A DNA stretch of 64,000 nt from Vampirovibrio sp. (lineage in GTDB: Bacteria > Cyanobacteriota > Vampirovibrionia > Vampirovibrionales > JAJTHC01). This document shows, in pieces, positions 5,609 to 41,009 of the stretch. The notes beneath the pieces were generated by a model. The model saw only the letters and a list, made by a program, of their open reading frames with translations, made no database searches and was not told the origin of the DNA. Numbering within the stretch: the stretch's first letter is position 1; the number at the start of each line of letters is the position of its first letter. The position numbers and the translations under genes are program-made. Location: contig JACEUU010000003.1 of assembly GCA_024998755.1 (NCBI GenBank), positions 620,001 through 684,000 on the forward strand. The letters run 5' to 3'.

Positions 5609-6413
5609 GGGTGAATACTTTCTAAAAAAAAGAGTGAGATAGGATGGACTATTCTATGCTTATTATTCTACCAAAAAAGTATCATTAAACTAATTGTCTA
5701 TTCACAAGGTTGGCTTGAAGGGGTACTTAGAAGCTGTCTTCATAGTGTAGGATTTGTTGTATAATGAAAGGATAGCAAAGGGGAAAGATGATCTATCCAA
5801 CTGATTTAACAGACAAACAATACAACCTGATTGCCGGTTTATTCAATGTAGGAAACTACGGTCAGGCAAGAAAGCACCTTGTCAGAGACCTACTCAACGC
5901 CGTTTTTTATCTCACCAAAACAGGGTGTCAATGGGCAATACTACCCAAAACCTATCCACCCAGAAAAGCCGTTGAAAGCTTCTTTTACCGAGCAAAAAAA
6001 CGAACAACATGGGATGCCATGCTTGAACGTTTCGTGGTTCTCGACCGAGAAGCCTCTGGTAAAAAAGCCGAACCCACTTACGCCTTGATTGATTCCCAAA
6101 GCGTGAAAACCACGCTCAATGCCGAAGAACGTGGTATTGACGGGGAAAAAAAAGGTGAAGGGTCATAAATGGCATATTGTAACCAATACGCAGGGACGGC
6201 TATTGTTTGTTCAAGTACACGCCGCTAATATCCACGATACGAAAGGGGGGTGTGGTGTTTTTGAGCAGGCGGTGAAGATATTTCCTAGCTTAAAGGGTGT
6301 TTGTGCAGATGCTGGGTACCGTAAGACATTTGAGGACTTTGTAAAAGGGATTTTAGGTAAAACGGTTGAGATTGTTGAGCGAATTAAAGAGGCGGGTTGG
6401 GCGGTGATTCCTA

Positions 6414-7342
6414 TAGCTGTTCCAATAATTATTGAGCTATAATAAGGAGGATAACGTTCACGAAAAAGGAGGATTCATCTATGGCATATAGCGTCGATTT
6501 AAGACAACGAGTCGTTGATTGCATCAATCAAGAAAAAGAAACACAACAAGCCACCGTCATCCGATTCAAAGTCAGTCTCGCCACCGTCAAACGATGGGTC
6601 AAACGAACCTGTCTCATCCCCAAAAAACCAGGGGCAACCACCGCAACAAGCATCGACAGAAACCAACTACTCGCCATACAAAAAGCCAACCCCAGTGCCT
6701 ATTTGGACGAATTGGCTCTCTTGCTCGGTTCTAAAAAATCCACCATTTCCTACAACCTCATTAAACTCGGCATTAGCCGTAAAAAAAAGCACGCTCTACC
6801 GAGAACGAAGTGAAGCCAAACGCACAGTTTATAAGCAGGAGATAGAACCGCTAACGCCCGCCAGTCTTGTGTTTGTGGATGAATGTGGGGTTGACCGTAG
6901 AAGCGTTGAACGCTTGTATGGTCGTTCCCCTAAAGGTGAACGGGTGCAGGAGGAAATTAGTGGTCAACGCACCGAACGTACCTCTATTATAGCAGGGTTA
7001 CAGGGTGGAAAGCCATTAGCCCCGTGGTGTTTTAAGGGCTATTGTAATACCGAGGTTATTTTGACGTGGGTTGAACATGAGTTGTTACCGAGTTTAACGG
7101 CGGGGATGACGGTCATTGGGGATAATGCGAGTTTTCATAAATCTTGGGAGATTCAACAGCTGATTGAATCTGCGGGTTGTCGGTTGTTGTTTTTACCGCC
7201 TTACAGTCCTGATTTGAATCCGATTGAGCGATTTTGGTCGGCGTTGAAGGCGAGAATTCGTCGGTTACTAACCGATACCTTATCTTTAGATGAAGCCATT
7301 GACCAAGCCTTTAAAATGGCTCAATAACTTTTGGAACAGCTA
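6414..7342 (+). mobile_element. IS630-family element, copy 1 (nested in the IS5 element)
   Basis: A 929-bp element bounded by imperfect inverted repeats (TAGCTGTTCCAATAATTATT at 6414; complement of TAGCTGTTCCAAAAGTTATT ending at 7342) and a TA duplication (6412-6413 and 7343-7344), as expected for the IS630/Tc1-mariner superfamily. It encodes a two-frame transposase. A second copy of identical length, in the opposite orientation, is at 8393-9321, so the family has been active recently in this genome. Confidence 0.9.
6481..7327 (+). CDS. IS630-family transposase (two overlapping frames)
   Basis: The first frame (6481-6813, 110 aa) supplies the N-terminal helix-turn-helix region ([18 protein letters not shown]). 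The second frame continues from the A8-G tract at 6781-6789 to 7327 and supplies the DDE_3 endonuclease domain: [11 protein letters not shown] (first Asp), [11 protein letters not shown] (second Asp), [16 protein letters not shown] (Glu). Fusion requires a +1 (or -2) shift at the A8 run, which suits programmed frameshifting or transcript slippage known in this family. GGAGG at 6471-6475 precedes the ATG. All three catalytic acids are present, so the enzyme may be functional when frameshifted. Confidence 0.85.
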
Positions 7343-7528
7343 TAAACGGTGGATTGTGGAGCGAACGTTTGCTTGGTTGACTGGGTATCGTCGGTTATCT
7401 AAAGATTTTGAACGAACAATTAGTTCGGCTGAAGCTTTCGTTAAAATTGCTCATTGTAAGCTGTTATTAAATAGACTGTCTAAACTATGAAGACAGCTTC
7501 TAACCACTCATGGGGAATGTTTAGCTTT

Positions 7529-8390: not shown

Positions 8391-8392
8391 TA

Positions 8393-9321
8393 CAGCTGTT
8401 CCCAAAGTTATTGAGCCATTTTAAAGGCTTGGTCAATGGCTTCATCTAAAGATAAGGTATCGGTTAGTAACCGACGAATTCTCGCCTTCAACGCCGACCA
8501 AAATCGCTCAATCGGATTCAAATCAGGACTGTAAGGCGGTAAAAACAACAACCGACAACCCGCAGATTCAATCAGCTGTTGAATCTCCCAAGATTTATGA
8601 AAACTCGCATTATCCCCAATGACCGTCATCCCCGCCGTTAAACTCGGTAACAACTCATGTTCAACCCACGTCAAAATAACCTCGGTATTACAATAGCCCT
8701 TAAAACACCACGGGGCTAATGGCTTTCCACCCTGTAACCCTGCTATAATAGAGGTACGTTCGGTGCGTTGACCACTAATTTCCTCCTGCACCTGTTCACC
8801 TTTAGGGGAACGACCATACAAGCGTTCAACGCTTCTACGGCCAACCCCACATTCATCCACAAACACAAGACTGGCGGGCGTTAGCGGTTCTATCTCCTGC
8901 TTATAAACTGTGCGTTTGGCTTCACTTCGTTCTCGGTAGAGCGTGCTTTTTTTTACGGCTAATGCCGAGTTTAATGAGGTTGTAGGAGATGGTGGATTTT
9001 TTAGAACCGAGCAAGAGAGCCAATTCGTCCAAATAGGCACTGGGGTTGGCTTTTTGTATGGCGAGTAGTTGGTTTCTGTCGATGCTTGTTGCGGTGGTTG
9101 CCCCTGGTTTTTTGGGGATGAGACAGGTTCGTTTGAGCCATCGTTTGACGGTGGCGAGACTGACTTTGAATCGGATGACGGTGGCTTGTTGTGTTTCTTT
9201 TTCTTGATTGATGCAATCAACGACTCGTTGTCTTAAATCGACGCTATATGCCATAGATGAATCCTCCTTTTTCGTGAACGTTATCCTCCTTATTATAGCT
9301 CAATAATTATTGGAACAGCTA
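8393..9321 (-). mobile_element. IS630-family element, copy 2 (at a rearranged junction)
   Basis: A 929-bp element nearly identical to the copy at 6414 but reversed, flanked by TA at 8391-8392 and 9322-9323. The left end is slightly diverged (CAGCTGTTCCCAAAG against TAGCTGTTCCAAAAG). The two flanks belong to different genes: a minus-strand gene remnant on the left and the middle of the serine recombinase gene on the right. The recombinase flank matches the intact gene exactly at its TA (40080-40081), which identifies the original insertion site and implies that the left flank has since been replaced. Confidence 0.9.
8408..9254 (-). CDS. IS630-family transposase, copy 2 (two overlapping frames)
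   Basis: Same two-frame organisation as the copy at 6481: an N-terminal HTH frame (9254-8922) and a catalytic frame ending at 8408, joined at a T8 run on the plus strand (A8-G on the coding strand) near 8947-8954. It differs from copy 1 at a few residues (for example VKRWL for VKRWV, ECGVGRR for ECGVDRR, GEQVQ for GERVQ). The substitution next to the first catalytic Asp leaves DECGV intact, so catalytic acids are retained. Confidence 0.85.
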
Positions 9322-9951
9322 TATTACGGACGCTTTGTTTTTAAAGGACAAGCCTATATCGGTAAACATGAACCACTCATATCCGCTTCACTGTTTCAAG
9401 AAGTCCAACGCAATCTAAAAATTGCAGGAAAATCCGATTATGAAAAACGCACCGTCGCCTTTGCAGGTCTTATTAAATGCGGACACTGTGGCGGGTCTGT
9501 TACAGGCGACATTAAAAAAGAACGCTATGTGTATTATCGTTGCGGGCATCACAAACAAAAATGCCCCGATAAATACATTCGTGAAGAAGCCCTCGAAGTA
9601 CAATTTGAACACCTCGTGGCAAGCCTACGAATGACACCTGAACAAAGCGTTTGGATTCGTCAATCCTTAAAGGAAGTCAATCAAACCAAAGAAGTTGAAA
9701 TCAACGAACGGCGAGACACTATCCAAGTTGAAATTAAACGATTAGAAAATCGACTGAATCGGTTGTATGAAGACAAATTAGACGGCGTTATTAGCGAGTC
9801 ATTCTATCTAATGAAGTCCGCTGAATATAACGCTCAGGTGGCGGATTTAAATGGTACTTGGGAGAAATTATCCATTGTGAATGAAGACCAAATTCGCCTA
9901 GGTCTGATGATTATCGATTTTGCAACCAACACAGTGCAAGCGTTTAAATAA
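9322..9951 (+). pseudogene. Large serine recombinase, 5'-truncated by IS630
   Basis: This is the C-terminal half of a recombinase nearly identical to residues 231-439 of the intact gene at 39390 (one visible difference, IRQS for IRQA). It retains the end of the recombinase domain, the zinc ribbon (KCGHCGG and YRCGHHKQKCP) and the coiled-coil region, but lacks the catalytic resolvase domain. It begins exactly at the TA used by IS630. Together with the following 153 bp it forms a 783-bp direct repeat with 40080-40862. Confidence 0.92.
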
Positions 9952-10116
9952 ATGACTATGTTCGAAAAGGCTGAGTTGCTTAGGATACTCGTTTCGAACT
10001 TTTCCCTACAGGGTGGAGAAGTGCAAGTCCACTGGAAAAAACCGTTCGATGTACTCGCTCAAAAAGACGAATATAAACAAAAATACCCCCAAGGGAATTC
10101 GAATGGGTACGTATAA
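9952..10116 (+). CDS. Recombinase C-terminal tail ORF (copy 1)
   Basis: A 54-aa frame starts with ATG directly after the recombinase TAA and in the same frame. Its sequence (FEKAELLRILVSNFSLQGG, then KPFDVLA) is the kind of C-terminal tail that large serine recombinases carry after the coiled coil, so the TAA splits what is usually one protein. Its last codons (PQGNSN) are encoded by the tRNA-Glu 3' end sequence at the attachment site, then GYV and stop. With the 5' part of the recombinase lost, this copy is unlikely to function. Confidence 0.5.
   Translation: MTMFEKAELLRILVSNFSLQGGEVQVHWKKPFDVLAQKDEYKQKYPQGNSNGYV
10084..10104. other. Attachment-site junction (tRNA-Glu 3' end copy)
   Basis: These 21 bp are identical to 40842-40862, the 3' end of the tRNA-Glu gene through its T-loop. 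Upstream sequence is shared with the intact recombinase copy; downstream sequence differs abruptly (GGGTACG here, CCCTGCC in the tRNA). This is the pattern of an element right end next to the left end of another element, so I read it as the internal att junction of a tandem array. Confidence 0.7.
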
Positions 10117-38751: not shown

Positions 38752-39393
38752 ATGATGACCTCAAAAGAAGCACCCCCCAGTCTCTTAACAAAAATCGTCA
38801 ACCTTCAAGAAGTTCGGGAGTAAAAAGAAGGGCAACAAAAACTTTTTGAAGTACAAGAACAATACGTTCCTTATTCCCTATTTGAAAAGCAAACGAAAGA
38901 GATGAATCGCTTATTCTCCCGTACTCAGAAAGAATTAAAGACCTCTAATTCCCAAGTGGAACGGTTAGCCACATCATTGGAACGTTTAATCCCTGAACTA
39001 ACAGATAAGGCTATTGATAATTATGAGCCGATGTTAAGGGTTGGGGTATTAGAATCAGGGGTAAAGGCGGATGTAGCAGTTGTAGATGGAGCTTCTGTTC
39101 CCTCAGAACAGGTGTACACGTTACTGTCTAACAGTATTGTAGAAAAAATAGGGAAAGATAAATTCACGGCTTCTCAATTAGGAGGTATTTTGAAAGCACT
39201 GAAAATCAAAGGAGATTCGACCTTTCATTATGAAGTAAAAATTGGTAAAAAGTCCTCTGCACAATGTTATAAACCTAGCGTTATTAAAGAGTTGTATCAT
39301 CGGTTAAAAAATTATGAAAAATACGGAATTACTCAAGAAAAAGCCCTCAAATGGCAATCCTATCTAAAGCCCGAAAGTGAGGTTATTCAATGA
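38752..39393 (+). pseudogene. Recombinase-upstream gene with an in-frame TAA
   Basis: ATG ATG at 38752 follows an AGGAG site and opens a frame that continues to 39393 except for one TAA at 38821-38823, after QEVRE. A single CAA-to-TAA change would explain it. The uninterrupted product would be 213 aa with a coiled-coil-like middle (LKTSNSQVERLATSLERL) and a basic C-terminal part. Reinitiation at ATG 38902 could still yield 163 aa. The 3' end overlaps the recombinase start by 4 nt. Family not recognised. Confidence 0.6.
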
Positions 39394-40709
39394 AAAAGGC
39401 GGTTTTATATGCCCGTGTTTCAAGCACGGCTCAAGAAAAAGAAGGGTTCTCAATCCCTGCACAAATTAAACTACTGAAAGAGTATGCACTCAAGCATGAT
39501 TACATCATTGCCCAAGAATTTACCGATGCTGAAACGGCTAAAAAATCAGGGCGTACTAACTTTAAAGCCATGATGGATTTAATTCATAAAGACAAAAGTA
39601 TCAAAACCATCTTGGTTGAAAAAACGGATCGTCTAACCCGAAATTTTCAGGATTATGTGCTGATTGACGAGTTAATCGCTCAGTGTGATATTGAAGTCCA
39701 CTTGGTGAAAGAAAATGAAGTCCTCAGCCAACGGGCTAAAAGCCATACCAAACTCATTCACGGGATTAAAGTGGTATTAGCTAAAAACTTCATTGATAAT
39801 CTGAGTGAAGAAGTTTCCAAAGGAATGCTTGAAAAAGCAAAACAGGGACACTGGCCGAGTCGGGCACCCTACGGCTATAAGAACAACCCAACCACACGCT
39901 TCATAGATGTAGACCCTATTCAATCTGCCTATGTTAGAAAAGCCTATGAATTGTACGCAATCGGGGGTGTTTCATTAAAAGGTGTTGTAGCTCAACTCTA
40001 TCGTGAAGGGCTTCGTTTTCGTCCTGCCACTGCCAAGCCTTCCCTTAGTAATCTTCACCACATTTTAACCAATCCCTTTTATTACGGACGCTTTGTTTTT
40101 AAAGGACAAGCCTACATCGGTAAACATGAACCACTCATATCCGCTTCACTGTTTCAAGAAGTCCAACGCAATCTAAAAATTGCAGGAAAATCCGACTATG
40201 AAAAACGAACCGTCGCCTTTGCAGGTCTTATTAAATGCGGACACTGTGGCGGGTCTGTTACAGGCGACATTAAAAAAGAACGCTATGTGTATTATCGTTG
40301 CGGACATCATAAACAAAAATGCCCCGATAAATACATCCGTGAAGAAGCCCTCGAAGTACAATTTGAACACCTCGTGGCAAGCCTACGAATGACACCTGAA
40401 CAAAGCGTTTGGATTCGTCAAGCCTTAAAGGAAGTTAATCAAACCAAAGAAGTTGAAATTAACGAACGGCGAGATACCATCCAAGTTGAAATTAAACGAT
40501 TAGAAAATCGACTGAATCGGTTGTATGAAGACAAATTAGACGGCGTTATCAGCGAGTCATTCTATCTAATGAAGTCCGCTGAATATAACGCTCAAGTGGC
40601 TGATTTAAATGGTACTTGGGAGAAATTATCCATTGTAAATGAAGACCAAATTCGCCTAGGTCTAATGATTATCGATTTTGCAACCAACACAGTGCAAGCG
40701 TTTAAATAA
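39390..40709 (+). CDS. Large serine recombinase (integrase of the element)
   Basis: A 439-aa site-specific recombinase. The resolvase domain starts YARVSSTAQ (catalytic Ser11) and continues with EKTDRLTRNFQDY. The recombinase domain (APYGYKN near residue 155) is followed by a zinc ribbon (KCGHCGG near 285, RCGHHKQKCP near 310) and a coiled coil (KRLENRLNRLYEDKLDG). It sits 132 bp from the tRNA-Glu 3' end, which it probably uses as attachment site. A TAA splits off the usual C-terminal tail, which is read as the next ORF. The 3' 630 bp are duplicated at 9322. Confidence 0.93.
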   Translation: MKKAVLYARVSSTAQEKEGFSIPAQIKLLKEYALKHDYIIAQEFTDAETAKKSGRTNFKAMMDLIHKDKSIKTILVEKTDRLTRNFQDYVLIDELIAQCDIEVHLVKENEVLSQRAKSHTKLIHGIKVVLAKNFIDNLSEEVSKGMLEKAKQGHWPSRAPYGYKNNPTTRFIDVDPIQSAYVRKAYELYAIGGVSLKGVVAQLYREGLRFRPATAKPSLSNLHHILTNPFYYGRFVFKGQAYIGKHEPLISASLFQEVQRNLKIAGKSDYEKRTVAFAGLIKCGHCGGSVTGDIKKERYVYYRCGHHKQKCPDKYIREEALEVQFEHLVASLRMTPEQSVWIRQALKEVNQTKEVEINERRDTIQVEIKRLENRLNRLYEDKLDGVISESFYLMKSAEYNAQVADLNGTWEKLSIVNEDQIRLGLMIIDFATNTVQAFK

Positions 40710-40895
40710 ATGACTATGTTCGAAAAGGCTGAGTTGCTTAGGATACTCGTTTCGAACTTTTCCCTACAGGGTGGAGAAGTGCAAGTCCACTGGAAAAAAC
40801 CGTTCGATGTACTCGCTCAAAAAGACGAATATAAACAAAAATACCCCCAAGGGAATTCGAATCCCTGCCGCCTCCGTGAAAGGGAGGTGTCCTAG
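40710..40895 (+). CDS. Recombinase C-terminal tail ORF (copy 2, running into tRNA-Glu)
   Basis: The frame begins at ATG directly after the recombinase TAA, in frame, and encodes the tail motif FEKAELLRILVSNFSLQGG and KPFDVLA. Its last 18 codons run antisense through the tRNA-Glu gene. In a free element the tail would be short, so the C-terminal residues depend on the integration site. Whether it is made as a separate peptide or by readthrough cannot be told here. Confidence 0.5.
   Translation: MTMFEKAELLRILVSNFSLQGGEVQVHWKKPFDVLAQKDEYKQKYPQGNSNPCRLREREVS
40842..40862. other. Right attachment site (attR) in the tRNA-Glu 3' end
   Basis: These 21 bp, from the discriminator base of tRNA-Glu through its T-loop, are identical to 10084-10104. 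The shared sequence continues leftward into the element and stops here on the right, so the crossover lies within or at the edge of this stretch. Confidence 0.72.
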
Positions 40896-40914
40896 GCCAC
40901 TAGACGATGGGGGC
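40842..40914 (-). tRNA. tRNA-Glu (anticodon UUC)
   Basis: The minus strand folds as a 73-nt tRNA: acceptor GCCCCCA pairing with TGGGGGT (the first pair is G-T), D-arm GTCTAGTGGCCTAGGAC, anticodon arm CCTCC-CTTTCAC-GGAGG with TTC, T-arm AGGGA-TTCGAAT-TCCCT, discriminator A. CCA is not encoded. The island abuts its 3' end. The weak G-T first pair may reflect an element-supplied 3' end. Confidence 0.95.
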
Positions 40915-41009
40915 ATATGCCAGTGAAGAGTACAAGCCCTTCAACACCTTCTACCATACCCAAAGCAAAAACCCCTGTCAACACCCAATATAACCATCAT
41001 TACACCAAT

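Follow-up and report, generated by a model that had tools for sequence, protein, structure and literature searches.

The window analysed here, a stretch of 64,000 nucleotides from Vampirovibrio sp., contains two tandem genomic islands, and at the right end of each lies a copy of a large serine recombinase gene interrupted by an in-frame TAA (Table 1). Copy 2 contains the catalytic resolvase domain (PF00239; 4.5e-23), with the serine motif (YxRVSS) present as YARVSS at residues 7–12, and its Pfam matches comprise Resolvase, Recombinase (PF07508), and Zn_ribbon_recom (PF13408). As recorded in the first-pass annotation, the TAA and the in-frame ATG directly behind it occur in both copies (TAA at 9949–9951 and 40707–40709) with an identical tail, the frame around the stop being ...QAFK-TAA-ATG ACT ATG TTC GAA... 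in each. The tail of copy 2 comprises 61 codons (40710–40892) ending in ...YPQGNSNPCRLREREVS, with its stop at 40893–40895, and that of copy 1 comprises 54 codons (9952–10113), with its stop at 10114–10116; the tail frame of the recombinase contains ILVSNFSLQGGEVQVHWK. The earlier identification of this tail as the normal C-terminus of large serine recombinases is confirmed: the block E-K-x-x-L-L-x-x-x-x-S-N ... K-P-F is continuous in all homologues reaching the column of the stop, and the phrog_95 score gains 10 bits when the tail is included, the end of the match moving from residue 417 to 476. Based on this alignment and the gain in score, the homology of the open tail to the recombinase C-terminus cannot be put down to chance. 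A frameshift is needless to explain the tail, which is already in frame with the body, and recoding of TAA as a sense codon is ruled out, TAA being an ordinary stop that ends 12 of the 22 genes checked in the window.

Table 1. Features of the two recombinase copies, the islands, and the attachment site (positions in the window).
Feature	Position	Strand	Basis
Second IS630-like copy, inverted	6412–7344		DDE_3 transposase match; 99% alike to 8391–9323
IS630-like element at cut end of copy 1	8391–9323	-	Inverted repeat, 99%
Copy 1, recombinase 3' fragment, residues about 231–439, same TAA at end	9322–9951	+	Repeat; comparison of copies
Copy 1 tail frame, 54 aa, ends ...YPQGNSNGYV	9952–10116	+	Translation; comparison of copies
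Junction core CCCCCAAGGGAATTCGAAT, island 1 right end to island 2 left end	10086–10104	+	Comparison
Island 2, about 30.8 kb, recombinase at right end	10105–40862	.	Pfam
Copy 2, large serine recombinase body, 439 aa, ends TTT AAA TAA	39390–40709	+	ORF; Pfam; phrog_95 integrase
In-frame TAA of copy 2 (residue 440)	40707–40709	+	Sequence; AlphaFold2 model for structural place
Copy 2 tail frame, ATG + 60 codons (61 aa), stop TAG	40710–40895	+	Translation; homologue alignment
Right attachment core CCCCCAAGGGAATTCGAAT (tRNA 3' end), common to copy 1 junction	40844–40862	+	Comparison of two copies
tRNA-Glu (TTC), integration target, antisense overlap with copy 2 tail frame	40841–40915	-	ARAGORN

Island 2 carries defence-rich cargo genes spanning 10740–37834, among which Pfam identifies a HipA-like kinase with an HTH partner, Fic, two type I restriction-modification systems, RhuM twice, a GIY-YIG protein, Abi_C, and DUF3987 with an NrS-1-polymerase-like domain. 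As in integrases, an attachment site and a recognizable element boundary adjoin the recombinase gene, with the core common to tRNA-Glu and the tandem junction; the tRNA-Glu of G004, which has no neighbouring recombinase, has the same sequence as this core. The two copies are identical from 9907 and 40665 up to the attachment junction (10104 and 40862, respectively) and divergent thereafter, because copy 2 runs into tRNA-Glu and copy 1 into island 2 at its left end. The separation of the two tails exactly past the core (antisense tRNA-Glu) bears out the earlier proposal that the last residues of the tail depend on the attachment site. A third left island end, 96% identical, is found at another place in the same genome (L053:5879–6368; G000:C1:1321878 onward); its left flank is other than tRNA-Glu, and it lacks a recombinase copy of this kind. 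In G001, of the same genus, a tyrosine-integrase-like C-terminus (GHKTTQMVMRYAHQH; L099) lies at the same tRNA-Glu, and two integrase types, this one and the serine recombinase, appear to use one tRNA-Glu site.

The first-pass annotation took both copies to be otherwise conserved, which is wrong for copy 1, a fragment without the resolvase catalytic domain. The repeat with copy 2 begins at position 9322, precisely on the boundary of an IS630-like element, with no recombinase sequence left upstream, and residues 1–225 are matched nowhere else in the genome at this identity, copy 2 excepted. Judging from this arrangement, copy 1 is a gene cut by the IS630-like element; it has no catalytic domain, and therefore copy 2, with its 439-aa body, is the sole possible source of a recombinase. 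The two IS630-like elements form an inverted pair and carry two overlapping transposase frames each; one sits inside an IS4/5-type transposase gene, and the other borders copy 1 where that copy is cut.

In an AlphaFold2 model of the read-through protein, built with 22 viral homologues (mean pLDDT, 82.7), the coiled-coil helices span residues 336–383, 389–415, and 418–440, and are followed after the stop by a helix (443–453) and two strands (454–460 and 463–468) forming a β-hairpin. Together with the PF07508 and PF13408 matches, the model helices identify the Recombinase domain and the zinc ribbon with a coiled coil that are typical of integrases. The stop falls in the model at the end of the coiled coil (helix 418–440), before the helix and β-hairpin completing the zinc domain; these final elements are encoded in frame, but past the TAA rather than in the same open frame. 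The top fold matches are the SPβ, Bxb1, φC31, and A118/LI integrases. The A118/LI integrase (PDB ID: 4kis) and the SPβ integrase YokA (PDB ID: 9dxh), among the best fold/profile matches, have the same resolvase and recombinase domains and share with the recombinase here the zinc ribbon with inserted coiled coil and the final helix and β-hairpin; each is one continuous polypeptide, however, whereas here a stop precedes the final helix and hairpin. The φC31 integrase has the same architecture, but is likewise continuous. The best-scoring NCBIfam models are the XisF and Ccr recombinases, also large serine recombinases, with scores far below those required for membership (105.7 versus a cut-off of 375, and 102 versus 900, respectively). 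In LI integrase, helix M and strands 13–14, after the coiled coil, complete the zinc domain, and flexible linkers are located at the coiled-coil base (PMC3783163); one of these corresponds to the gap between residues 440 and 443 in the model. Deletion of the zinc domain abolishes att binding by LI integrase. In φC31 integrase, the C-terminal Val-rich region is needed for attB binding, which is nearly abolished by the V566A and V571A replacements (PMC2810336). By analogy with the LI deletion and the φC31 mutants, the 439-aa body without its tail would probably bind its sites poorly.

Homologues were drawn from the order, class, and phylum, and from viral contigs. More than 60 of them cover the column of the TAA, all without a stop there, and the supposition that the stop might be conserved among homologues fails in this alignment; as a family feature, the stop is ruled out. 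The closest homologue, the G005 recombinase (L006), is 57–58% identical and has the same target, tRNA-Glu, into which its gene runs antisense as the tail does here, but it consists of 519 aa in one frame, with a sense codon (Thr) where the stop stands here, followed by Met. Given the absence of the stop from all of these homologues, the TAA is, on alignment, a nonsense substitution found in this lineage alone; the ATG behind it is probably older than the stop itself, since the nearest homologue also has Met there. The tail is 51% identical to that of the closest homologue (residues 441–475), within the range of the other domains (35–79%), and thus has not decayed. No close relative exceeding 60% identity over the full length was found in genome_contigs, IMG/VR, plasmids, or phages. 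Three short recombinase frames were rejected as parallel splits: that of G204 ends at a contig edge, that of G239 is truncated without a tail, and that of G123 is frameshifted. Tail-only matches in G013 (L098) and G014 (L097), considered as separately encoded tails, were also rejected, being remnants at tRNA-Glu without a recombinase; these fossil tails (TYKKPFD...YPQGNSNPRRLREREVS) have no matching recombinase body beside them and are probably scars of lost islands.

Between the two copies, 15 synonymous substitutions and a single non-synonymous one are found over 208 codons (dS, 0.120; dN, 0.002; dN/dS, about 0.02). From this excess of synonymous changes, we infer that strong purifying selection acted on the body during the divergence of the copies and that both were selected as protein for most of that time. 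The first-pass annotation had set against a maintained split the combination of homologues lacking the stop with recent duplication of one mutated gene; the former were found (>60), but the latter, as stated, is ruled out by the divergence of the copies (dS 0.12, dN/dS about 0.02). A sequencing or assembly error would be conceivable in a single genome, but it is highly improbable, with the same stop standing in both copies despite 16 differences between them elsewhere and dissimilar flanking sequences.

The tail (153 nt) shows 0 changes between the copies, whereas a tail free of selection would have gathered about 17 (P = 4e-8; Fisher, 7e-6) and one translated under the constraint of the body 3.6 (P = 0.03); in intact homologue pairs, synonymous change in the tail is mostly at or somewhat below the body rate. 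The copies end in an identical run of 198 nt, with P = 0.015 for such a run at the terminus and 0.17 for it as the longest gap anywhere. Since the tail has somewhat fewer changes than translation alone predicts (P = 0.015–0.03), gene conversion fits better. Either constraint would have acted on the tail ever since the stop appeared, or the copies would have been homogenized over their 3' ends, the stop included. It might also be supposed that the 439-aa form works alone and that the tail is dispensable, its DNA being kept by att/tRNA constraint or by conversion; the purifying selection on a body with the stop in both copies agrees with this, as does the last part of the tail, which is att/tRNA sequence and so constrained as DNA. 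This explanation is nevertheless improbable, because such constraint should span only some tens of the 153 nt, every homologue reaching the column has the tail, and the tail forms the helix and β-hairpin of the zinc domain.

A far stronger contender, to which we assign somewhat less than an even chance, is a recent inactivating nonsense substitution: the gene would have been continuous while the copies diverged, and the stop would then have been copied by gene conversion or by tandem-forming homologous exchange, leaving a 439-aa product that lacks part of the zinc domain and is inactive, and a stranded island. All homologues are continuous at the stop column, the identity of the last 198 nt is what a conversion tract would leave and is unusual for a terminal segment, copy 1 is already broken at the IS, and the fossil tails at tRNA-Glu in G013 and G014 indicate that such islands do die. 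Against this, there is no statistical sign of conversion across the whole alignment (P = 0.17), an extra event is needed, and the linker position and the abutting ATG are left as coincidence. The idea of a maintained split, put forward at first pass, may hold, given the purifying selection on the body and the undecayed tail, but it draws no support from the rest of the family, where the stop is absent, or from copy 1, which is a fragment. We tentatively place a maintained two-piece recombinase, the tail of which is re-initiated at the abutting ATG, slightly ahead, likewise at somewhat less than an even chance, because the body was selected while the stop is shared and the cut lies in the linker directly before an ATG; translation of the tail, its binding, and the resulting activity are predicted. 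The linker position and the abutting ATG were recognized as notable only in hindsight, and a natural split that functions would be out of the ordinary.

Translational coupling is efficient at stop-to-start distances of about −8 to +10 nt, and gene pairs in this range often encode partners of one complex (PMC10666635). The TAA-to-ATG distance here is 0 nt, within this range and as in termination-reinitiation gene pairs (PMC10666635); unlike those pairs, both frames here derive from one ancestral protein, and the coupling is a predicted one. Elsewhere in the gene, just 2 of the 181 codons one step from a stop would give a stop abutting an ATG. The upstream frame 38902–39393 overlaps the recombinase start by 4 nt, on the basis of which coupling may already be in use in this operon. 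No Shine-Dalgarno-like sequence is evident by eye upstream of the tail ATG. Re-initiation at distance 0 is plausible, and of the two routes proposed at first pass, re-initiation and readthrough, it gains from the ATG lying in the coupled range. Programmed readthrough of the TAA, yielding a low level of full-length enzyme, is very unlikely: the tail is in frame and unchanged between the copies, as readthrough would have it, but TAA is the tightest of the three stops in E. coli reporters, with means of 0.01–0.05% of control (PMC11126739), and is an ordinary stop here. An 8-bp inverted repeat, GTTCGAAA...TTTCGAAC (40718–40757), starts 8 nt past the stop and could likewise be taken to favour readthrough; this hairpin has a z of −2.1 for a hand-picked stretch, a value that loses significance once that choice is allowed for, and over 151 nt surrounding the stop the RNA is no more stably folded than shuffled sequences (z, −0.01). 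A structural signal in the RNA past the stop was accordingly rejected, not being significant over the wider region. The motif TTCGAA is also present in the att core at 40856.

For the two-piece gene, the following course of events is proposed. A nonsense substitution, confined to this lineage, would have arisen in a recombinase that inserts the defence island at tRNA-Glu, at the linker joining the coiled coil to the last piece of the zinc domain, and both copies would have received the stop by common descent. Ribosomes would terminate at the TAA, releasing the 439-aa body, and a fraction of them would re-initiate at the adjoining ATG to produce the 61-aa tail (helix and β-hairpin), which would bind the body and complete the zinc domain in trans. 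Completion of the zinc domain by such a re-initiated 61-aa peptide, making this a naturally two-piece large serine recombinase, is possible but rather doubtful. No natural split large serine recombinase was found in the literature searched, and the halves of φC31 integrase split at 307/314 show no complementation without protein splicing (PMC6868429).

Among 46 homologous loci, 34 (L006, L003, L007, L009, L010, L026–L047, and others) have a recombinase frame that reaches antisense into a tRNA or tmRNA gene at its 3' end, with an overlap of about 6–120 nt, and in 4 further loci the frame comes within 300 nt of one; the 46 include that of the window, where the overlap is carried by the tail and the 439-aa body ends before the tRNA. 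The targets are varied (Glu, Val, Gln, Pro, Asp, Arg, Ile, Asn, Ala, Ser, and tmRNA). As read from these loci, the recombinase C-terminus in this clade is partly written by the attachment site.

If the recombinase does work in two pieces, it would be, as far as the literature was searched, the first natural split of a serine integrase found, with a split point, at the linker from the coiled coil to the zinc domain, that would be useful for conditional integrases. The amount of peptide could then limit both integration and excision, and the C-terminus of the peptide would change with the attachment state of the island. If instead the gene is dead, the stop would be an ordinary inactivating mutation, and the case would illustrate that two copies sharing a stop do not amount to conservation when one is a fragment and conversion is possible. 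Altogether, the running of recombinase 3' ends antisense into their target tRNA genes is a firmer pattern than the split.
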